A DNA stretch of 64,000 nt from Helicobacter sp. 10-6591 (lineage in GTDB: Bacteria; Campylobacterota; Campylobacteria; Campylobacterales; Helicobacteraceae): positions 1 to 64,000 of the forward strand of contig NZ_NHYK01000005.1 of the NCBI RefSeq assembly GCF_003288805.1, in the 5' to 3' direction. Positions 1-59,265 of the stretch are shown piece after piece. The notes under the pieces were generated by a model that searched no databases, was not told the origin of the DNA, and worked only from the letters and a program-made list of their open reading frames with translations. The position numbers were made by a program, and so were the translations under genes. Position 1 is the first letter of the stretch; each line of letters starts with the position of its first letter.

Positions 1-42
1 AACAAGAAAAGTTGCTGTTATGAGAGATAGTCGTATGTTCAT
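1..42 (-). CDS. 5' end of an exported protein (partial, runs off the left edge)
   Basis: Only the first 14 codons lie in the window. They read MNIRLSLITATFLV, a basic then hydrophobic stretch typical of a signal-peptide start. The ATG at 40-42 is preceded by a near-perfect ribosome binding site, AAGGAGGAACA, on the minus strand. A -10 box TATAAT at 105-110 lies directly beside a G10/C10 tract, the arrangement seen at phase-variable outer-membrane-protein genes of Helicobacter. The product is therefore probably an outer membrane or secreted protein, but its identity cannot be read from this window. Confidence 0.6.
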   Translation of the reverse strand, partial: MNIRLSLITATFLV

Positions 43-104
43 TGTTCCTCCTTGAATAAGTCAAAGATTTTCAATAAGTCTAAAGATTTCCATTGAGAGG
101 AATT

Positions 105-110
105 ATTATA
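105..110 (-). promoter_or_regulatory. -10 box of the leftward exported-protein gene
   Basis: On the minus strand TATAAT sits immediately after the C10 run. A transcription start near 97-98 would leave a leader of about 55 nt to the ATG. A -35-like TTAAGC occurs at 130-135, giving a 19-bp spacer with ten G/C bases and 17-18 bp with eight or nine. Expression may therefore depend on tract length. Confidence 0.5.
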
Positions 111-120
111 GGGGGGGGGG
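111..120. repeat. G10 homopolymer in a promoter spacer
   Basis: Ten consecutive G on the plus strand lie between the divergent exported-protein gene and the dsb-like gene. The run falls in the spacer of the leftward promoter, so slipped-strand gain or loss would change the -35/-10 distance. This is a typical Helicobacter transcriptional phase-variation design. Confidence 0.75.
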
Positions 121-208
121 TTAATCTAAGCTTAAAGTTATATGTCTGTGTTGAAAATTTTTATAGAATGTTCCCCGTTATATTTTATTACTTGGCAAGG
201 ATTGAAGA

Positions 209-964
209 ATGCAGCGATTGATTATGCTAGTGGTGGTATTTGCGTTAAATTTGCATGCAGAATCTGGGATCATCAAATCATTGCAGTCGCAATTCGAAAA
301 CAACAGCACACAAAGAGCTAAAATACAATCTATCCTCCAAAAACATGGTATAAATTTTGAAGTTTTAGAGGTACATAATCTTACCCATGGCCTTAGTTTT
401 GTAGTGGTTGGAGATAAAGAAGGCCACAAGAACTCTTTGTTTAGCACCAATGATGGTGAGGTCATCTTCCACACACAAGCAGTTTTTAGTCTGGATAGAG
501 CTTTTGACACCAAGTTAGAAACTCTCCATCAAGAACTCTATGAAGAGCAAAGAAAGCGCGTGGATTCTCAGGTGTTAGAGATTTTCAAAAACTACACAGA
601 TGCAGTGATAAGCTTTAAAGCAAAGACTGCTAGTAAAAAGACATTTTATATTGTTTCTGATCCTAATTGTCCCTACTGCCACAAAGAGTTAGAGAGGCTT
701 CCTATACTGCTAGAAGATGCTAATGTAAAAATGCTTGTTGTGGGATTTTTGGGTGAGAATTCTTTACAGAAAGCAAGTGTGATTCTTGAGAAGAGAGGAG
801 CTGATGAAAAGGCCAATCTAGTCTTACTGCAACAACTCTATACGAAAGACAAAAAGCAAAACCTCTCTTACCAAAAGCAGCTTGAGAAGGCATTGCAAAT
901 CACTAGAGCGCTTTCAGATTCTGGAATCAATGGAGTACCTTACATCATTGAGCGTGATAACTAA
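209..964 (+). CDS. DsbC/DsbG-like periplasmic thiol:disulfide oxidoreductase
   Basis: The 251-residue protein begins with a signal peptide (about residues 1-18). An N-terminal region of about 100 residues is followed by a helical linker at about 100-130 and a thioredoxin-fold domain. The active-site motif is CPYC at 154-157. The cis-proline loop is GVPY with Pro244. This is the architecture of DsbC/DsbG-type isomerases or reductases that act on periplasmic cysteines. Only seven residues follow the cis-proline, whereas family members usually have about 30 more, so the last strand and helix look missing. Its stop overlaps the next start (TAATG), so the two genes are co-translated. The CPYC motif resembles DsbC/DsbA-type centres; the exact redox direction cannot be told from sequence. 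Confidence 0.75.
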   Translation: MQRLIMLVVVFALNLHAESGIIKSLQSQFENNSTQRAKIQSILQKHGINFEVLEVHNLTHGLSFVVVGDKEGHKNSLFSTNDGEVIFHTQAVFSLDRAFDTKLETLHQELYEEQRKRVDSQVLEIFKNYTDAVISFKAKTASKKTFYIVSDPNCPYCHKELERLPILLEDANVKMLVVGFLGENSLQKASVILEKRGADEKANLVLLQQLYTKDKKQNLSYQKQLEKALQITRALSDSGINGVPYIIERDN

Positions 965-2382
965 TGCAAGTAGCGCCAATTGTTGAGAGATTCTTTTCTC
1001 CATTGCTTACACAAGAGCAAGAAAGCGATAAGTTAGAGCATATCCGTGCTAATACTATTTTGGATTCAAAGACACATTATTTTGATTGGACGGCAAGCGG
1101 TCTTGCGTATAGAGATATAGAATCTCGTATAGATGAGATTTTGCCTTTTTATGCTAACACGCATTCTTTTTCCTCTACGCATGCCAAGATAATGAGTGCG
1201 CTTTATGAGGAGGCAAAGGTGCATTTGGCAGAGTGTCTTGAGCTAGACTCTAGCTTTGCCTTGCTTGCTTGTGGTAGTGGTGCAAGTGGGGCAATCAAAA
1301 AATTCCAAGAGCTCACAGGGCTTTATATCCCACCACAAAGCCTTGAGATTTTACAGAAACAGGGATTTTTGCAAACATTAAGCGTACAGGAAAAAAGTGC
1401 GCTTGCAAGAGTTTTTATCAGCTCTTATGAGCACCACTCCAATGAAATCTCATTGCGTCAGGGTCTATGTGAAGTGCTCAAGATAGCACTAGATTCCCAA
1501 GGTCGCTTTAGTCTGCAAGATTTGCAATCCCAACTCCAACTATCAACTTCTAGTACGAGGCTTATTGGCGCATTTTGCCTTGCTTCAAATGTCAGTGGAT
1601 TACTCTCTCCATACAAAGAAATCGCGCGCATTTTTAGGCAATACAATAATTCTATCCTTGCCTTTGATGCAGCAAGTGCCAGCTCGCATCTGAATATACC
1701 TTCACGATATTTTGATGCGCTTTTTCTCTCTCCGCATAAGTTACTTGGTGGTGTGCAGGCCTGTGGGCTTTTGGCTATCAAAAGGAGCTTGCTAGATTCA
1801 CAAAATCCAAGCTTTAGTGGTGGAGGCACTATCGAGTATGCAAGCAATCAAGGACATTTATATGTGCAAGATATGGTACATAGACAAGAGGCTGGAACAC
1901 CACCGATTTTAGGATTACTGCGTGCATGTCTTAGCTTTAAGCTACGCAATGAAGTGGGGTTGGACCTTATTAGAAGGCGTGAGAAAATCTTAAGCCAGAT
2001 TCTACTTCATGAGCTTAAGGCAATCCCTGCACTTGAGCTTTATGGCGATTGGCATAGCGCGCAATCCCAGCACAATCTAGGGATTATTAGCTTTAATATC
2101 GCCTGTGTGTCTCCTTTTGATTTAAGCTTGGTTTTGAGTGAAAGATTTGGAATCCAGACACGAGCGGGATGTTCGTGTGCTGGACCTTATGGGCATTATT
2201 TGATGGAACTAGATTCTTTGCATATAGATTCCCAAAGTACCAAAACCCTCTATGAGCTTTATCAAAATCCAAGCAAGCGTCCGGGCTGGATTAGGATTAG
2301 CTTGCATTATGCCCACAGTTTAGAAGATATTGAATACCTCGTAGATTCTCTACAAAAAAGCATAAAACTCCTGCGCAGATAG
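964..2382 (+). CDS. class V PLP-dependent aminotransferase / cysteine-desulfurase-like protein
   Basis: The 472-residue cytoplasmic enzyme belongs to the NifS/SufS (class V) aminotransferase fold. The PLP-binding lysine is K259 in LSPHKLLGG, preceded by the DAAS segment that holds the cofactor ring. A cysteine-bearing loop AGCSCAGPYG at 401-410 matches the catalytic-cysteine loop of SufS/CsdA-type desulfurases. It is longer than housekeeping Helicobacter NifS (about 390 residues), so it is probably a paralogue with its own substrate. The ATG overlaps the stop of the dsb-like gene by one base. Whether it mobilises sulfur or acts on another amino acid is not decided by the sequence. Confidence 0.75.
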   Translation: MQVAPIVERFFSPLLTQEQESDKLEHIRANTILDSKTHYFDWTASGLAYRDIESRIDEILPFYANTHSFSSTHAKIMSALYEEAKVHLAECLELDSSFALLACGSGASGAIKKFQELTGLYIPPQSLEILQKQGFLQTLSVQEKSALARVFISSYEHHSNEISLRQGLCEVLKIALDSQGRFSLQDLQSQLQLSTSSTRLIGAFCLASNVSGLLSPYKEIARIFRQYNNSILAFDAASASSHLNIPSRYFDALFLSPHKLLGGVQACGLLAIKRSLLDSQNPSFSGGGTIEYASNQGHLYVQDMVHRQEAGTPPILGLLRACLSFKLRNEVGLDLIRRREKILSQILLHELKAIPALELYGDWHSAQSQHNLGIISFNIACVSPFDLSLVLSERFGIQTRAGCSCAGPYGHYLMELDSLHIDSQSTKTLYELYQNPSKRPGWIRISLHYAHSLEDIEYLVDSLQKSIKLLRR

Positions 2383-2470
2383 ATAGCAGCCTTTGTTGGC
2401 AAATTAAAACAGACTGGTTATTTGTTTTCAATGTTTTGTGTTAAATTCTGTAAACTCTTGAAAACCATAC

Positions 2471-2494
2471 GCTTCTTTGACTTCTTTAAGAAGC
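2471..2494. terminator. weak hairpin downstream of the class V aminotransferase
   Basis: Inverted repeat GCTTCTT / AAGAAGC with a 10-nt loop lies between the aminotransferase and the carbonic anhydrase gene. No clear T run follows, so termination here is only a suggestion. Confidence 0.3.
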
Positions 2495-2653
2495 ACAATT
2501 GTTTGAAGCTGTCTCTCAAATCTTTTGATATTTAATAAAATCAATCAAGGGATAATATTTATTATTTATGTATTTTCTCAGTATAGAATTGCTGGCTTTT
2601 TCAGTGCAAAACAAACCACTAGAGGCAAATCACCACAAATAAAGGATAAACAA

Positions 2654-3463
2654 ATGAAAAAAAGCTTTTTTTTGCGTACGCTCCTTGGAGCCATAACTAT
2701 CGTTACATGTGCAGCCCATGATATATCCACACATGATCACTTGCATCATCATATGCACTCTTATGATTCCCACTCTGATGACCATCACAAAGCGCATTGG
2801 GGATATGGAAAAGACAATGGTCCAAAGCAATGGGGTAAGCTTGATGAGGCGTACAAGCTCTGTGATTTGGGACATAATCAAAGCCCTATAAGTATCCCCA
2901 CGCATTCTGCGCAAAAAAGCGCTCATGCGCTAAAAACTGCTTATCTTGCCAATTCTGTTGAGTTTATAAATAACGGACATACATTGCAAGTCAATTATAA
3001 AAACTCTGGCGAATTGCTCTATGAAAACAAGCCGTATGAATTGCTCCAATTCCATTTCCATACGCCTTCTGAGACATATATTGATCAAAAAGGGTATCCC
3101 CTAGAAATCCATTTTGTCAATAAAAGCGCAAATGATACTCTGCTTGTGCTTGCGGTATTAGTCAAGGAAGGAAAGGCAAATAAACATTTTTCGCAGCTCA
3201 TAGCGCATCTACCTGAAAAGGAAGGGCAAAGTGTTGCGCTGAAAGGGTTTAATCCTACTAACTTGCTGCCAAAAAAACTTGGCTACTATGCCTTTGATGG
3301 CTCACTTACAACTCCTCCTTGCAGTGAAATGGTGCAGTGGGTAGTTTTAAAAGATTATATCTTTGCTTCTAAAGAACAAATAGAAGCTTTGCATAGGATT
3401 TTGCAAGACAATGCAAGAGATCTCCAAGAGCTCAATGATCGAGTGATAAAAGTCGCAAACTGA
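2654..3463 (+). CDS. periplasmic alpha-carbonic anhydrase
   Basis: This enzyme interconverts carbon dioxide and bicarbonate with zinc; in Helicobacter the alpha type is exported and supports acid acclimation. The chosen ATG at 2654 follows an AAAGGA ribosome site and opens a signal peptide of about 20 residues. The reading frame is open further upstream but that part is not protein-like. The three zinc histidines are H134 and H136 (in QFHFHTP) and H153 (in EIHFVN). HWGY at 48-51 and the LTTPPCSE segment near the C-terminus are family hallmarks. Unusually, residues 22-45 between signal peptide and domain hold ten histidines mixed with Asp and Ser, a likely metal-binding tail. The mature protein has about 249 residues, normal for the family. 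Confidence 0.93.
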   Translation: MKKSFFLRTLLGAITIVTCAAHDISTHDHLHHHMHSYDSHSDDHHKAHWGYGKDNGPKQWGKLDEAYKLCDLGHNQSPISIPTHSAQKSAHALKTAYLANSVEFINNGHTLQVNYKNSGELLYENKPYELLQFHFHTPSETYIDQKGYPLEIHFVNKSANDTLLVLAVLVKEGKANKHFSQLIAHLPEKEGQSVALKGFNPTNLLPKKLGYYAFDGSLTTPPCSEMVQWVVLKDYIFASKEQIEALHRILQDNARDLQELNDRVIKVAN

Positions 3464-3540
3464 TTGCTTTGCAAGCAGTTGCACTTAAGATGGGCTACAA
3501 TCCACTTTGAGTGAGAATTCATAGTTGTAAAGGAGAAATG

Positions 3541-4290
3541 ATGCCTGTAGCATTTATCACTGGGGCAAGCTCTGGTTTTGGCAGAGAGATAGCTAGGGCC
3601 TTGGCAAAGAAGGATTATAAAGTCGTGGCTTTGGCGCGCAGAAGTGAGCGATTGGAAGATTTACGCAAGGAGTTTGGAGAGAGAATCTATCCAATATGTG
3701 TGGATGCAAGAAACAAAGAAAGTGTTTTTAGCGCTATTGATTCTTTGCCCCAAGAGTTTTCTGACATAAGCATATTGGTTAATAACGCAGGCCTTGCACT
3801 AGAGCAAGTTGAGTTTGATAAGCTTGAAATAGATGATATTGATACTATGGTGGATACGAATATCAAAGGCTTTTTGTATGTGGCTCGCGCTCTTATACCT
3901 CTTTTGCGCCGGCAAAAAGATGCCTATATTTTTAATATTGGCTCGGTTGCCGGTAGAAACCCCTATTTTGGCGGGAATGTGTATTGTGGTACAAAAGCTT
4001 TTGTCGGACAGTTTTCACTTGCTTTGCGCAATGATTTACGAGGGAGTAATATCAAGGTTACAAACATCGCTCCAGGACTTTGCAAGACAGAATTTAGCGA
4101 AGTGCGCTTCAAGGGTGATAAAAAGAAAGCAGATTCCTTGTATGAAAATACAAAATTTATAAGTGCAAAAGACTTGGCAGAAGTGTTATTGATGCTTGTT
4201 GCCTTACCTTCTCATATCAATGTCAATGAAATCGAGCTTATGCCAGTCACACAGACATGGTCAGGATTCCATATAGAGAGATTTGGGTAG
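3541..4290 (+). CDS. NADP-dependent short-chain dehydrogenase, YdfG-like
   Basis: The 249-residue protein matches the classical SDR family. It has the NADP-binding TGASSGFG at 7-14, NNAG near 81-84, catalytic Ser135 in IGSVAG, Tyr148 and Lys152 in YCGTK, and a C-terminal PVTQ motif. Together these resemble the E. coli YdfG group (3-hydroxy acid / serine dehydrogenase, 248 residues). Two ATGs lie in tandem at 3538 and 3541. The AAGGAG at 3530-3535 is correctly spaced only for the second, which also gives the family-standard N-terminus. The gene stands alone between the carbonic anhydrase gene and a convergent hydrolase. The physiological substrate is not known from sequence. Confidence 0.87.
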   Translation: MPVAFITGASSGFGREIARALAKKDYKVVALARRSERLEDLRKEFGERIYPICVDARNKESVFSAIDSLPQEFSDISILVNNAGLALEQVEFDKLEIDDIDTMVDTNIKGFLYVARALIPLLRRQKDAYIFNIGSVAGRNPYFGGNVYCGTKAFVGQFSLALRNDLRGSNIKVTNIAPGLCKTEFSEVRFKGDKKKADSLYENTKFISAKDLAEVLLMLVALPSHINVNEIELMPVTQTWSGFHIERFG

Positions 4291-4381
4291 TGGTGTTTTG
4301 GTCTCCATTATCTTACAAGTCTATTTAACTCTCTCAACCACTTGCACATTGTTCACATTGTATTGGAATAAGACAAGTACT

Positions 4382-5200
4382 TTATCTTGTATTTTGTATA
4401 TCAAGAGTCAAAGTAGTTGGCTCGCTTGAAGGGAAATGTGTGCCTACAAATCTCATATTTGTTTCTTTGAGCATTCGGAGTACTTCTTGTCTTGTCTTTA
4501 TCGCCTCATCTTTATCCATATCGTATTCTATGGCAATCTGCGGATTGTCTTTTTGCACATCATAAACATGTAGCAAATCCGCAACAAAGAGTAGCTTAGA
4601 GTTTTTGGAATCTTCTAGCAAGATCATAGTGTGTCCGGGCGTGTGCCCAAAAGCTTGCAAGGGTGTAATCTTGAACTGCAAAGATTCTAAAATAGGAGTG
4701 TCTTTTGTGAAAAATTCTTTTTTACTGAAAGAGTTAAGAGCATTCTTTGCTTGCAAATCTTGTGAATGCATCCAGAATTCGTATTCCTTTTTCTCGACCA
4801 GTAATGTCGCGTTTTTAAAAATATTCTGTTGGTTGTTATCTAAAATCCCTCCTACATGATCTCTGTGCCCATGAGTAATGATTATATGGGTAATATCGCT
4901 GGGGGTTAGTCCTTGTTCTTTGAGTTTGGATTCTAAAACTTCTCTTGTATGAGGGAATCCCGTATCTATAAGAGCAATAAAGTCTTTGTTTTTGACAAGC
5001 ATAATATTGTGCTGATTTTGGCGATAGGTATTGGTCTTTATCATTTTATTTTCTGTAATGAGCTTATTTGTTGGTGGATTGCCTTGCTGCAAAGAGATGA
5101 CAAATACCTCAGAATCCGCCATATTCTGCTTATAAAATCCACTTCCAAAAGCATAGTAAACACACATACCAAAAGACAAAATCCATACTAAAAGTTTCAT
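4382..5200 (-). CDS. exported or membrane-anchored metallo-beta-lactamase-fold hydrolase
   Basis: The 272-residue protein has an N-terminal hydrophobic segment (about residues 3-20) that looks like an uncleaved anchor or a signal peptide. A metallo-beta-lactamase domain follows. The dinuclear zinc motif THGHRDH at 109-115 is complete, and further ligands are visible in FGHTPGH and in FVADLLHV. The layout resembles the AHL-lactonase/glyoxalase-II-like branch rather than true beta-lactamases, but the substrate cannot be assigned. The ATG follows AAAAAGGAG on the minus strand. It lies just downstream of glcD, in the same direction with a 24-bp gap, so the two may be co-transcribed. Confidence 0.8.
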   Translation of the reverse strand: MKLLVWILSFGMCVYYAFGSGFYKQNMADSEVFVISLQQGNPPTNKLITENKMIKTNTYRQNQHNIMLVKNKDFIALIDTGFPHTREVLESKLKEQGLTPSDITHIIITHGHRDHVGGILDNNQQNIFKNATLLVEKKEYEFWMHSQDLQAKNALNSFSKKEFFTKDTPILESLQFKITPLQAFGHTPGHTMILLEDSKNSKLLFVADLLHVYDVQKDNPQIAIEYDMDKDEAIKTRQEVLRMLKETNMRFVGTHFPSSEPTTLTLDIQNTR

Positions 5201-5224
5201 TATTAGCTCTCCTTTTTGTATTTT

Positions 5225-6601
5225 TTATAAACCCATTTTGCCCGGATTTAAGATGTTATTTGGGTCAAAAGCTCTTTTGAGATTCCTAAAAAGATTCATT
5301 TCCTCTTTGGTAAAAGCAAGCTCCATAAAAGATGCTTTTGATAGCCCTATACCGTGCTCGCCACTTAGTGTGCCTTCCAAATCTACTGCAAGCTTGAAAA
5401 TCTCAGTGATTGCCTCATGGCCTCTCTGTAAGTCCTTTAAGTCCTCTACCATCACATTTGTATGTACATTACCATCGCCTGTATGCCCAAAACAAGGAAT
5501 CTTAAAGCCATATTTCTTGCTGATCTCACCAATACCAGCAAGCAGCTCGGGTAAGCGCGCACGTGGGACTGTTATATCTTCGTTTAGTTTTTTCTTACCA
5601 TAGATTGTGATGCTTTGGCTTGCATTACGTCTTGCAAACCACAAGTCCTCCTCTTCTTGTTCATTTTGTGCGATCTTAAATTCTTTGCAATTGTTTTCCT
5701 TGAACTTTGCTTGGAGTGCGTGTAACTGGTAGTCTAAGAGCTCTTGTAAGTCGCCATCTACCTGGGTGATGATAATAGCACCTGCATCTTTTGGTAATCC
5801 TTTGTGGAATCTGTCTTCAACTGCGCAAATACTCAAATTATCCAAAAACTCCATTGCAACGGGTGTGATACCGCTAGCCATAGTTTTGTACACGGCATTC
5901 ATAGCATCATCAATAGTCGCAAAGATTCCCATGGCAGATCTTTTGAATCTAGGCTTTGCTATGAGCTTTAAAGTAAGCTCTGTGATTACTGCGAGTGTCC
6001 CTTCACTTGCAATAAGAGTGCCTACAATGTTATAGCCCGCGACATCTTTGATTGTTTTTTTGCCTGCGCGGATAATGTCTCCATTTGGCAAAACAGCGCG
6101 CAAAGCCATCACATAATCTTTCGTGATTCCGTATTTGGCAGCGCGCATTCCGCCGGCATTCTCACTGACATTACCACCCAGAGTACTATAGTCCTGGCTG
6201 GCAGGATCAGGTGGATAGAAAAGCCCTTTTTGCTCAATTATATTTTGGAAGTGCTTATTGATAACAGCTGGTTGTACACGCGCTATAAGATTCTTTTCAT
6301 CGATTTCTAAAATATTATTGAAGTGTTTTTCCATTGCCAAGATTACCCCGCCGCTACTAGGAAGTGCCCCACCTGTGAATCCACTGCCAGCTCCACGCGG
6401 GATAAGAGTGATTTTGTGTGTGTTGCAATATTTGAGAATCTCGCTTACTTGGAGCTCATTTTGTGGATAGACTACTGCATCAGGTTCATATCTCTCTCTT
6501 GTAGCATCATAGCAATAAGCAATCAAATGCGCCTTGTCGTTGTAGCAGTCTTGCTTTCCTACGATGTTTTGTAAGTTATTGAAATGTTTGGAATCCAACA
6601 T
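5225..6601 (-). CDS. glcD: FAD-linked oxidase, GlcD-type glycolate/lactate dehydrogenase subunit
   Basis: The 458-residue protein is a FAD-binding type 4 oxidoreductase that oxidises 2-hydroxy acids such as glycolate or D-lactate. The PCMH FAD-binding domain shows IPRGAGSGFTGGALP near residues 65-80 and DPASQDYSTLGGNVSENAGG near 133-152. The C-terminal FAD-oxidase domain ends in GEHGIGLSKASFM and the family-typical NPGKMGL. An in-frame TTG six bases upstream exists, but AAGGG is spaced 6 nt from the ATG at 6601, so the ATG is chosen. It is the fourth gene of a leftward run with the membrane protein, dksA and rlmH upstream. Confidence 0.88.
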   Translation of the reverse strand: MLDSKHFNNLQNIVGKQDCYNDKAHLIAYCYDATRERYEPDAVVYPQNELQVSEILKYCNTHKITLIPRGAGSGFTGGALPSSGGVILAMEKHFNNILEIDEKNLIARVQPAVINKHFQNIIEQKGLFYPPDPASQDYSTLGGNVSENAGGMRAAKYGITKDYVMALRAVLPNGDIIRAGKKTIKDVAGYNIVGTLIASEGTLAVITELTLKLIAKPRFKRSAMGIFATIDDAMNAVYKTMASGITPVAMEFLDNLSICAVEDRFHKGLPKDAGAIIITQVDGDLQELLDYQLHALQAKFKENNCKEFKIAQNEQEEEDLWFARRNASQSITIYGKKKLNEDITVPRARLPELLAGIGEISKKYGFKIPCFGHTGDGNVHTNVMVEDLKDLQRGHEAITEIFKLAVDLEGTLSGEHGIGLSKASFMELAFTKEEMNLFRNLKRAFDPNNILNPGKMGL

Positions 6602-22564: not shown

Positions 22565-22582
22565 AAAAAAAAAAAAAAAAAA
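22565..22582 (+). repeat. A18 homopolymer ahead of the fucosyltransferase
   Basis: Eighteen consecutive A end 22 bp before the ATG at 22605, just upstream of an AAGGAT ribosome site. The run occupies the likely promoter or leader of the gene, so length changes could alter its transcription or translation. Confidence 0.7.
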
Positions 22583-55062: not shown

Positions 55063-55725
55063 ATGCCCCATCTAAGCTTCCATCTGCTCATTTTTTTGTT
55101 TCTTTGTGGGATGGTGTGTATTTTTGCGAGTGTATTTGTTGTCAAGATTTATGACAAGAACTATTTTGTACGATCCCGTGCGAAATACTCTCTCTCTCTT
55201 GCATCTACATTCGCCTTTATCATCGCTTGGTATGCTCAGTATTGGGATTTAAGTTTAGAATCTTTGCTTAGCTTTGCCCTGCTTGTAATCTTCTTGATTC
55301 TATTCTTTGCTATGGCATTGCTTGATTACAAATACTTCGCCTTACCCAATAAACTCTTAGCAGTGTTTTTTTTCTTGTGTATTGCTATTACTTATTTCCT
55401 AGGCACGCAGCCCTTGGAAGATTCCCTAAGCACAGTAGGGCTATTTTTCTTACTCAAGCTATGTATGGAGTCTCTAAGCCAAAAGCCCATGTTAGGCGAA
55501 GCAGATATTGTCGTTTTAGGTGGTATAGGAGCTGTTTTTGGGATATTTGGTTGTCTTAAGATTGTATTTCTTGGGAGTTGCATCAGTCTAGCATGTGTTG
55601 TGTTCCATGCTTTAAAAAACAACCAAAGTTTAAGGGATACCAAGATAGCCTTTGTGAGCTATCTTTTCTTAGGCACATTGGGCTTTATACTTATAGAATC
55701 TATTTTCAGAGAATTCTATGTTTAA
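55063..55725 (+). CDS. A24-type (prepilin-peptidase-like) membrane aspartic protease
   Basis: The 220-residue protein has about seven hydrophobic segments. The first catalytic Asp is in ALLDYKYFALPNKL near residue 90. The second lies in MLGEADIVVLGG near residue 145, where GEAD replaces the usual GxGD. The N-terminal methylase part with zinc cysteines is absent, so it resembles the short TadV/archaeal forms. Prepilin peptidases cut type IV pilin-like signal peptides; no pilin gene is visible in this window, so the substrate is unclear. It overlaps the next gene by 8 nt. Confidence 0.65.
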   Translation: MPHLSFHLLIFLFLCGMVCIFASVFVVKIYDKNYFVRSRAKYSLSLASTFAFIIAWYAQYWDLSLESLLSFALLVIFLILFFAMALLDYKYFALPNKLLAVFFFLCIAITYFLGTQPLEDSLSTVGLFFLLKLCMESLSQKPMLGEADIVVLGGIGAVFGIFGCLKIVFLGSCISLACVVFHALKNNQSLRDTKIAFVSYLFLGTLGFILIESIFREFYV

Positions 55726-56740
55726 GCGTTATTTGTTCCTTTCATTTTCACAGCTGTTCTTTCCATTTTTTATAGTCTTACTTTTTATTGCATCTGTTGT
55801 ATTACTGATTAATATCGCTGCAAGAACTTATATAGTGAAGATGGATTTTTTGGATCTGTTCGCGCTCTTTTGCTATTCCTTGCCAGGAAGTGTGTTTTTT
55901 ATCATTCCTATCACCTTTTTTGCTTCATTGGTTTTGGGTGTTGCTAAGCTTTCATATGATTACGAACTTATGGTTTTCTTTGCACTTGGAGTAAAGCCTA
56001 GTGATATTTTGAAAGCATTTTTGCCTATCATATTGCTCGCGACAGCGATTTTGCTGGTCTTTTCTCTCATCATGGTGCCGCTATCAACGAGTGCGTCAAA
56101 AAACTTTGTCGCCCAAAAGCGGGCAGATATTGATGTCAATCTCAAAGCTGGGGAGCTAGGCCAGAAGCTCGGAGACTGGCTTATATATGTCGATGAAGCC
56201 AAAGACAGACACTATAAAAATCTCATACTTTACTCCCAAGACAGCGTATTAGATTCCCAGTCTTTCATCGTAGCGCAGGAGGGTGTGACGAGGAATTCTG
56301 ATGGGCTTTTTGAACTTTTGCTCAGCGGAGGAGATGCATATTTCACAGAGGAAAATGAAATAAGAAAGATAAGTTACAAGCAAATGAATGTCCGCCAGAT
56401 TATCGGCGAGCCCCAGCTTAGTGGATATGACTTGATAGATTATTGGAAAGATGCGCTCAATCACAATTCAAAATCCCAAGAACGCAAGTTCTCTCAAGCA
56501 ATACTTGTATCATTTTTCCCATTAGCCTCGATTTTTCTTATACTCGTTTTTGGTGTGGCAAACCCAAGATTCCAATCCAATATGTCATATTTTTATGTAA
56601 TAGGCTCTGTCGCACTGTATTTCGTGATGGTGCATATTTCCTCAGAGAATTTCCCATTTTTAGGCATCACTTGCATCCCGACTCTGTGGTTTATAGGCTC
56701 ATATCTTCTTTATCGCAGGACTATCAAGCTGTATTTTTGA
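55718..56740 (+). CDS. LptF/LptG-family permease (YjgP/YjgQ)
   Basis: The 340-residue inner-membrane protein has three N-terminal and three C-terminal hydrophobic segments around a periplasmic domain, the LptF/LptG layout. FYSLPGSVFFIIPITF-like text near residues 50-65 and the VPLSTSASKNFV region near residue 120 fit the family. LptF/G with LptB extracts LPS and passes it to LptC. Which of the two it is cannot be told. It overlaps the A24 peptidase-like gene by 8 nt. Confidence 0.82.
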   Translation: MFKRYLFLSFSQLFFPFFIVLLFIASVVLLINIAARTYIVKMDFLDLFALFCYSLPGSVFFIIPITFFASLVLGVAKLSYDYELMVFFALGVKPSDILKAFLPIILLATAILLVFSLIMVPLSTSASKNFVAQKRADIDVNLKAGELGQKLGDWLIYVDEAKDRHYKNLILYSQDSVLDSQSFIVAQEGVTRNSDGLFELLLSGGDAYFTEENEIRKISYKQMNVRQIIGEPQLSGYDLIDYWKDALNHNSKSQERKFSQAILVSFFPLASIFLILVFGVANPRFQSNMSYFYVIGSVALYFVMVHISSENFPFLGITCIPTLWFIGSYLLYRRTIKLYF

Positions 56741-56976
56741 TTCTAGTCCCTTTGTTAGTGAAATTTCTCACAACAGTTTGTCCACCTTTACTATTCCCAT
56801 TTTTTGTTCTTTCATCTGTAAAGAGATAGACTGTATCTGCATTATTGCTTGAGCTTATTGTTCCATTATTTTCAAAGCTGCCTATTGTAGAGCCACCACG
56901 AAAGAGTTTCTTGATTGTTTCAAAGTCTTTCTTCCTTTCACTACATTTAGACTGTTTTCATTTTCTCTCTCTTCAT
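56724..56976 (-). pseudogene. decayed autotransporter-like gene (remnant)
   Basis: On the minus strand, behind a T15 run, an ATG at 56976 follows AAAGAGAG and opens a very short frame (MKREKMKTV). The next frame reads KGRKTLKQSRNSFVVAL, like a signal-peptide N-region. The third frame is open from 56957 to the stop at 56724. It contains GGSTIGSFENNGTISSS and later TVVRNFTNKGTRIKN, two copies of the (S/N)FxNxGT pattern of Helicobacter autotransporter passenger repeats. The pieces are in three frames, so the gene is broken by frameshifts and a large deletion. Its end overlaps the LptF/G gene by 17 bp. I translated it by hand; homology is inferred from repeat style only. Confidence 0.45.
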
Positions 56977-56990
56977 AGCATTCTCTCTTT

Positions 56991-57005
56991 AAAAAAAAAA
57001 AAAAA
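56991..57005. repeat. A15 (T15 on the minus strand) homopolymer
   Basis: Fifteen A lie 15 bp upstream of the start of the autotransporter remnant on the minus strand, the place where T tracts tune Helicobacter surface-protein promoters. It is also 48 bp upstream of the flgE sigma-54 site. Confidence 0.65.
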
Positions 57006-57052
57006 GCAGTTATTCTCAAAAAAATAAATGAAAATCGGATTTATAAGATTAC

Positions 57053-57072
57053 TTGGGAATATAACTTGCTTA
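57053..57072 (+). promoter_or_regulatory. sigma-54 promoter of flgE
   Basis: TTGGGAATATAACTTGCTTA has GG at 57056-57057 and GC at 57068-57069, exactly 10 bases apart, with the TTGC core. A start near 57081 leaves about 31 nt before the flgE ATG. H. pylori flgE is RpoN-dependent, which agrees. Confidence 0.75.
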
Positions 57073-57111: not shown

Positions 57112-59265
57112 ATGCTTAAGTCTCTGTGGTCTGGCGTTAGTGGCATGCAAGCTCACCAAATTGCTTTGGATGTAGAAAGCAATAATATTGCTAATGTCAA
57201 TACTGTAGGCTTTAAATATTCGCGTGCTTCTTTTGTAGATATGCTTTCTCAAGTGAAACTTATAGCCACTTCTCCTTACAAAAATGGTCTAGGAGGGCAG
57301 AATGACTTTTCCGTAGGCTTAGGGGTTGGCGTAGATGCTACGACTAAGGTTTTTTCTCAAGGCAATATCCAAAATACTGATGTGAAAACTGATGTGGCTA
57401 TTGAAGGTGATGGATTTTTTATCATAAGCCCTGATAGAGGAACTACGCATAATTACACAAGAAATGGTGAATTTTTGTTTGATGCAAATGGGAATCTTGT
57501 AACCTCAGGTGGCTATGTAGTGCAAGGTTGGGTACGCAATACACTTGATCAAGATAGTATGAGGCAGATGAGTGATTTTGACTTTTTTAGAGTGGATAAT
57601 ACAGGACCGGTGCGTAATATACATATCGATCCGGGTATGGTGATGCCTGCACGTCCTACTACAAATGTAACTCTGCGTGCAAATCTTAATGCTGGACGCC
57701 ATACAGAGAGTGTGGCTGATATTGCTGCGCTGGATTCTACTTCTCTGACACCCTCTGATGGTGTGGCACCAACTTATGATTCTAAAGGGCGTTTGGAACA
57801 AGTAGGAGAGGACTTTGGCGTGCTTTTTAATGCTGATGGAGATGCTTTCAACCTCAATGAAAATCAAGGTATTTGGATAAGCTATAAAACTGCAGTACTT
57901 AGAAATGAAATAGAGCCTAGTGCAGAGGTGAGCACGATAGGGCTTAATGGTGAGAATATAAGTTTTAGCAATAATTCTGCACTCACTGGGATAAGCTCGC
58001 TTGTAGCTGCACAAAATGCTATCAACTCTTATCGCGATAAGACAGGTGTGGAAGCCTATGTGGATACTGGAGTCTTGAGATTGGAAAATAAAAATCAACT
58101 TGATGGTGGTGAAAAACTTAAAAATATAAAGATTACGGCTGCAGGCACTGGCGTATTTGTGAATTTTGTAGAAGGCGAAGAGGATATAACAGCTTTCCGA
58201 TACCGCTATACAAAAGCAAATGATGCGGATTCTACAACGGGGCAATTTAGGACAACTGAGGACTTACGCGCACTTATACAATATGATGCAAACATGATAA
58301 AGAATCCAGAAAACCAATACCAAGAAAGCACAGCGAGTATATCTGTAGTCGTCAATAAATACGGAATGTTTGAGATGCAAAACAAGGACGATGAGGACGA
58401 TGAAACACGTAATCTTAATATTTTTGTCAGTGCGCATACTTCAGGAAATATCACAAGCAATGTACTTTTTAAAGATACGATGAAAGGACTTAATACCGCT
58501 TCTTTGGTTGAAGGGGGGTATTCGGTTTCTTCAGGCAAGATCAATAAAGCAACACATACCACGAGTGTAGATGTCGTAGATAGCCTAGGAAGTAAGCATA
58601 ACTTGCGATTTGAGTTTTGGAAAACAGGTGATGCGGAATGGAGCTTTAGAGCAATCATGCCAGAACCTGCGCAGTTTGTCGGTGGGTCTGCTACCCGTCC
58701 GAACGTATTTGAAGGTGGTAGAGCTACCTTTAATAGCGATGGGTCTTTGGCAGGTATGAATCCACCTCTTATCCAAATTGATCCAAAAAATGGAAGTGAT
58801 CCACAGAGAATTGAGCTGAAGTTTGGAGGGAATCAGACATTTGGCGGTCTTACGAGTGTGGATAAAGTCTCAGAGACTTATGCGATTACACAAAATGGGT
58901 ATCAGGCTGGTGATTTAATGGATATACGATTTGATTCTAATGGCGCTCTTTTGGGTGCTTTTAGCAACGGAAAATCAATAGCTCTCGCACAAATAGCTCT
59001 TGCAAACTTTTCTAACAATGCTGGATTGCAGGCTGAAGGTGGGAATGTGTTTTCTCGGAGTGGCAACTCTGGAGAACCAATGATTGGTGCGGCAAATACC
59101 GGCAGAAGAGGAAGCGTGAGTGGCTCAAAGCTTGAGATGAGTAATGTTGATCTCAGTCGCAGCTTGACACAACTTATCGTGGTGCAGAGAGGTTTCCAAG
59201 CTAATTCAAAGGCGGTTACCACATCAGATCAGATTCTCAATACTTTGCTGAATATCAAACAATAA
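57112..59265 (+). CDS. flgE: flagellar hook protein FlgE
   Basis: The 717-residue protein builds the flagellar hook and is almost as long as H. pylori FlgE (718). The N-terminus LKSLWSGVSGMQAHQIALDVESNNIANVNTVGFK is the axial-protein motif. The C-terminus LSRSLTQLIVVQRGFQANSKAVTTSDQILNTLLNIKQ forms the partner helix. An AAAAAGGAT site precedes the ATG; the frame is open 28 codons upstream but lies across the sigma-54 site. Central domains are variable and surface-exposed. It is a class 2 (RpoN) gene by promoter. Confidence 0.96.
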   Translation: MLKSLWSGVSGMQAHQIALDVESNNIANVNTVGFKYSRASFVDMLSQVKLIATSPYKNGLGGQNDFSVGLGVGVDATTKVFSQGNIQNTDVKTDVAIEGDGFFIISPDRGTTHNYTRNGEFLFDANGNLVTSGGYVVQGWVRNTLDQDSMRQMSDFDFFRVDNTGPVRNIHIDPGMVMPARPTTNVTLRANLNAGRHTESVADIAALDSTSLTPSDGVAPTYDSKGRLEQVGEDFGVLFNADGDAFNLNENQGIWISYKTAVLRNEIEPSAEVSTIGLNGENISFSNNSALTGISSLVAAQNAINSYRDKTGVEAYVDTGVLRLENKNQLDGGEKLKNIKITAAGTGVFVNFVEGEEDITAFRYRYTKANDADSTTGQFRTTEDLRALIQYDANMIKNPENQYQESTASISVVVNKYGMFEMQNKDDEDDETRNLNIFVSAHTSGNITSNVLFKDTMKGLNTASLVEGGYSVSSGKINKATHTTSVDVVDSLGSKHNLRFEFWKTGDAEWSFRAIMPEPAQFVGGSATRPNVFEGGRATFNSDGSLAGMNPPLIQIDPKNGSDPQRIELKFGGNQTFGGLTSVDKVSETYAITQNGYQAGDLMDIRFDSNGALLGAFSNGKSIALAQIALANFSNNAGLQAEGGNVFSRSGNSGEPMIGAANTGRRGSVSGSKLEMSNVDLSRSLTQLIVVQRGFQANSKAVTTSDQILNTLLNIKQ

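Follow-up and report, generated by a model that had tools for sequence, protein, structure and literature searches.

The interval between lptG and flgE

The window, i.e. the whole stretch of 64,000 nucleotides of Helicobacter sp. 10-6591 DNA under analysis, contains a flgE gene preceded by a lptG/yjgP-like permease gene (Table 1). The gap between them is filled, on the minus strand (57024..56735), by a pseudogene, a member of a multi-copy autotransporter family. Its three pieces, a T15 promoter tract, a leader and a passenger fragment, follow each other in the order of the native gene. An earlier note had read here a hidden remnant of an autotransporter-like gene directly behind a T15 tract, and had seen in it the explanation of an otherwise odd gap before flgE; in all these points it is confirmed by the comparisons reported below.

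Table 1. Features of the lptG-flgE interval, in window positions
Feature	Position	Strand	Basis or remark
lptG/yjgP-like permease gene	55718..56740	+	open reading frame; 76-82% identical to congeners
Passenger fragment LFRGGSTIGSFENNGTISSSNNADTVYLFTDERTKNGNSKGGQTVVRNFTNKGT	56735..56907	-	173 bp; a 2-bp deletion near the 3' end shifts the frame
Leader piece AGTGAAAGGAAGAAAGACTTTGAAACAATCAAGAAACT	56905..56942	-	38/38 identical to the pre-signal leader of C56 (L015)
48 bp between T-tract and leader	56943..56990	-	no family match (no blastn alignment)
T15 homopolymer of the former promoter	56991..57005	-	tract listing and signature pattern
Promoter box TTTTTTTGAGAATAACTGC upstream of the T-tract	57006..57024	-	box and tract compared with family copies (see text)
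flgE sigma-54-type promoter motif TGGGAATATAACTTGC, intact	57054..57069	+	compared with relatives
flgE, flagellar hook protein, intact	57112..59265	+	82-89% identical to nearest Helicobacter

The box TTTTTTTGAGAATAACTGC, taken together with the T15 (57024-56991) and the A next to it, is the same in 34 of 35 bases as the region before the long family copy on contig C56; box and tract are also identical in 32 of 33 bases to C16 and to C18. The TACAAT-like -10 box, which comes after the tract in most copies, is absent after the T15 of the remnant, and no promoter was predicted in a scan of the remnant; the tract has therefore nothing left to regulate within it. It might be thought to act on flgE instead, variation in its length altering expression from the sigma-54 promoter, since about 50 bp separate it from the flgE promoter motif further downstream, its length would permit slippage, and T-tracts modulate sabA in Helicobacter pylori (PMC4081817). 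The tract belongs, however, to the remnant. The 42 relatives compared have none immediately before flgE, where nearly all carry a GG..TTGC(T) equivalent of the promoter motif (sequences read by eye), and no link leads from it to the sigma-54 promoter; such an effect is considered very improbable.

A check proposed in the earlier note brought out identical or near-identical segments elsewhere in the genome: besides the C56 leader, the passenger piece matches C58:36097-36271 with 97% identity over 173 bp, far more than chance would give (E = 1.4e-79, DNA search of the own genome), a partner which is itself a decayed pseudogene. About ten further copies matched the passenger at 72-93% in the same search, and identity to four long copies is 80-88% over 165-173 bp (88% for C54:97011, 80-84% for C16, C56 and C27). 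The passenger repeat GGSTI..FENNGTI..NFTNKGTI is kept. Its motifs GSFENNGT and RNFTNKGT, pointed out previously, can indeed be read, in a minus-strand frame other than that of KTLKQSRNSFVVAL. The latter, encoded in the minus-strand reading frame 57019-56882 and formerly described as signal-like, turned out by alignment to be no signal peptide: its KTLKQSRN part is the leader which precedes the signal peptide of the C56 copy (GRKTLKQSRNFIPKFVSTIAALSLCVSSAVA), while its SFVVAL part is passenger DNA for LFRGGST read out of frame.

Leader and passenger are joined, out of frame, at a common ACT; compared with C56, about 380 bp have been lost, the signal peptide among them. The longest minus-strand open reading frame, of 45 amino acids (57019-56882), spans T-tract and leader and loses the frame at this join. 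In addition to the signal peptide, the remaining passenger, the barrel (PF03797) and the C-terminal region shared by the family are missing. The broken frame, the 2-bp deletion, the missing parts and the short reading frame identify the segment as a pseudogene, which produces no autotransporter. A phage origin was discarded, as the segment had no match in a phage collection, and a weak 40-bp match within pstB (C4:44303) was judged to be due to chance.

A multi-copy autotransporter family in the same genome

Eight long open reading frames of the family, of 649-930 amino acids before the contig ends, were found on C12, C13, C16, C18, C27, C54 (96.6-98.8 kb), C56 and C57. They consist of a conserved signal peptide (..FVSTIAALSLCVSSAVA), present in most, and a long passenger made of NF-x-N-x-GT repeats, with a C-terminal part common to all eight. 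In seven of them the contig is cut at either of two fixed positions, and in C12 a little before, a pattern to be expected when a 3' half is repeated and breaks an assembly.

No Pfam or NCBIfam profile recognised the family; the long copies, cut at contig ends, gave no Pfam match and the barrel is not seen in them. The assignment to autotransporters rests on a distant homologue in another Helicobacter genus, which carries PF03797 (E = 4.4e-21), together with the presence of a signal peptide and of a passenger built of repeats; it concerns a family whose own barrel is unseen. The long paralogues resemble Helicobacter type V autotransporters in having a signal peptide, an NF-x-N-x-GT passenger and a C-terminal region distantly similar to proteins of another genus, and differ from them in that their barrel is lost to view at the contig ends, while the remnant has neither signal peptide nor barrel.

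With the C-terminal part as query, the 121 genomes of the taxonomic family yielded the own genome, which served as positive control, and six genomes of another genus (22-34% identity); none of the five congeners had it. A full-length paralogue gave no match in 11 relatives, in a search which included no positive control. Among the sampled close relatives the family is restricted to the source species. The suggestion that a full-length gene might stand at this locus in sister strains was not borne out, as the family is absent from all five congeners and lptG never adjoins flgE there.

A tract of 13 to 16 T precedes most long copies, and C21 has one more start, with a T14; ACTTCACTACAATCA or ATCCCTTATACAATT mostly comes directly after the tract. 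The C27 copy has no T-tract of this kind. In 1.64 Mb of genome, the signature NAANWNSTGY-T12 is matched at only seven sites, the remnant and six autotransporter starts, while the reversed control pattern is matched nowhere. The TGAGAATAASTGC promoter box with its T-tract is a feature of the family, and the remnant has retained it.

In sabA of H. pylori, a T-tract tunes the promoter of a surface-protein gene (PMC4081817). Similarly, an intergenic T13-T16 tract stands before the surface-protein gene in the long copies, where its slippage plausibly adjusts transcription; unlike the sabA tract, which lies beside the -35 element, theirs is directly upstream of the TACAAT-like box, which is gone in the remnant. 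By inference from sabA, slippage of the T-tract probably tunes the promoters of the long copies. The earlier proposal that a large phase-variable surface protein had been deleted here holds in so far as the segment is the remnant of an autotransporter-like gene with its T-tract promoter region; given the T13-T16 tracts at the paralogues, the parent family may plausibly be phase-variable.

The long copies share exact identical runs of 242 bp (C18/C13), 177 bp (C13/C12) and 119 bp (C16/C18), within genes otherwise 60-75% alike. Long runs so unevenly placed in unlike genes indicate that passenger segments were exchanged between copies, which are mosaic. In addition, orphan fragments, the shortest of 63 bp and the longest of about 650 bp, are present on C58, C6, C57 (at 24.8 kb and 28.3 kb), C26, C17, C10, C1, C56 (at 71 kb) and C8. 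At least seven of them are independent, considering that the C26 and C8 pieces reach contig ends and that the C17/C26 pieces and both C57 pieces probably derive from one interrupted gene each.

These data bear on the other proposal of the earlier note, that the fragment is a donor cassette for recombination with other autotransporters. On this reading it would be a silent store of passenger sequence, copied by gene conversion into expressed autotransporters. Variation by recombining cassettes has been published for Hsr, an autotransporter of Helicobacter mustelae (PMC2846917), which the present system resembles in that copies of an autotransporter family seem to have swapped passenger segments; both the clearly mosaic long copies and the number of orphan fragments would agree with such a role. 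However, no exact run shared by the remnant with a long copy exceeds 40 bp (reached with C27), versus up to 242 bp between long copies, the near-identical C58 copy is a pseudogene, and the remnant carries a 2-bp frameshift. Moreover, whereas Hsr cassettes are clustered at the expressed gene, the fragments are scattered here, and the remnant is a single small one beside flgE, with no array at an expression site and no sign of donor use. A donor function of this segment is therefore improbable. For the long members of the family, by contrast, phase variation and the use of donors are reasonable ideas in view of the sabA and Hsr precedents.

The remnant taken alone is an ordinary pseudogene. It leads to a gene family of interest: in this Helicobacter, which is close to H. 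sp. MIT 00-7814, the autotransporters form a lineage-restricted, mosaic family and have a T-tract promoter signature of their own; no description of such a family was found in the literature searched.

The lptG-flgE junction and the probable loss of truA

Homology to the family stops at 56735, within the last codons of lptG, where the sequence CTG TAT TTT TGA provides the final codons and the stop, and where TTTTGATTC is passenger sequence. The stop lies within TATTTTTGATTC, whose counterpart is TATTATTGATG in the close relative G004 and TTTTGATTC in the passenger, a microhomology of a few bases. lptG and flgE are neighbours at none of 29 lptG loci and none of 42 named flgE loci of relatives, and the gene upstream of flgE differs between congeners.

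In 21 of the 29 relatives lptG is directly followed by truA, which encodes a tRNA pseudouridine synthase; in G004 the two genes overlap as TGATG. Queries with a relative's protein, TIGR00071 and PF01416 detected no truA in the own genome, a draft assembly of 59 contigs; both profiles detected it in the congeners G001-G004, and TIGR00071 in 107 of the 121 genomes of the taxonomic family. Its usual upstream partner lptG is intact nevertheless. truA is also missing, according to TIGR00071, from the congener G005 and from every member of genera g3 and g10 in the sample, and for this reason seems dispensable in the taxonomic family.

We consider it probable that the segment is the dead remnant of one copy of the species-specific multi-copy autotransporter, left as a deletion scar, and that truA was lost along with the rest of this copy. 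A family copy would once have stood upstream of flgE in divergent orientation, aimed at lptG-truA. An internal deletion at the ACT microhomology would have taken the signal peptide and the first part of the passenger. A second deletion would have run from within the passenger as far as the lptG/truA overlap. With it the remaining passenger, the barrel and truA would have gone, as well as whatever stood between them, and lptG would have been left to end at an in-frame stop codon within the junction sequence. This one deletion would account for the missing 3' part, for the absence of truA and for the new gene next to lptG. Homology, order of the pieces, missing parts, a unique lptG-flgE junction and the failure to find truA are the observations at hand; the order of the events, and a single deletion as the cause of both truncation and truA loss, are what we infer, in a history reconstructed from one draft genome, with no relative in an intermediate state.

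Three further points weigh against the deletion account. With 59 contigs, truA could in principle lie in an assembly gap. The flanks of truA vary in relatives, and an inversion or translocation could have made the junction. Finally, since truA is missing also in two other genera and one congener, its loss need not belong to the deletion event.

Rearrangement is a real alternative, since the gene upstream of flgE is variable between congeners. Ectopic exchange between two dispersed copies, by inversion or translocation, would have brought the flgE side and the lptG side together, leaving a hybrid which then decayed. In agreement with this, the leader is nearest to C56 and the passenger to C58, dispersed copies of the family have long identical tracts in common, and the variable neighbourhood of flgE points to a frequent breakpoint. 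Homologous exchange would, however, give a hybrid in register, whereas both junctions are short microhomologies with DNA missing, a better fit to deletion; an inversion alone, furthermore, leaves the loss of truA unexplained. We regard an exchange of this type as unlikely.

If the deletion account holds, decay of an autotransporter gene may have cost the genome truA, a conserved tRNA-modification gene. On a broader and rather doubtful view, the dispersed copies in this species might serve as recombination ports, which swap passenger segments, take up restriction or defence islands within their reading frames, delete adjacent core genes such as truA through unequal events, and leave scar fragments behind.

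Isolated T-tracts and interrupted copies

Some further T-tracts were observed. The only other tract of at least 12 T, on either strand of the window, is a T18 at 22565-22582 on the minus strand. On C6, a T14 (L021:5997-6010) has the ATAACTGC prefix and is followed by AAAG, the same as in the remnant; it sits between cytochrome-like and polyphosphate-kinase-like genes, with no autotransporter sequence nearby. A run of 32 T on C21 (L020:506-537), whose contig start is an autotransporter 5' region, is possibly an assembly artefact.

Two autotransporter copies are apparently interrupted at about the same place, in the order leader, island, passenger. One interrupted copy lies at L013:4829-8855 (G000:C57:24.8-28.9 kb), the other is distributed over L145:2404-4120 (C17) and L012:3-7132 (C26), probably the two ends of one interrupted autotransporter locus. 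The islands carry Type IIG restriction-methylation sequence (for C17, PADLOC gives 3.5e-163) and a pentapeptide-repeat membrane protein; on C26 there are, in addition, a Beta-protein and a protein kinase similar to those of defence systems.
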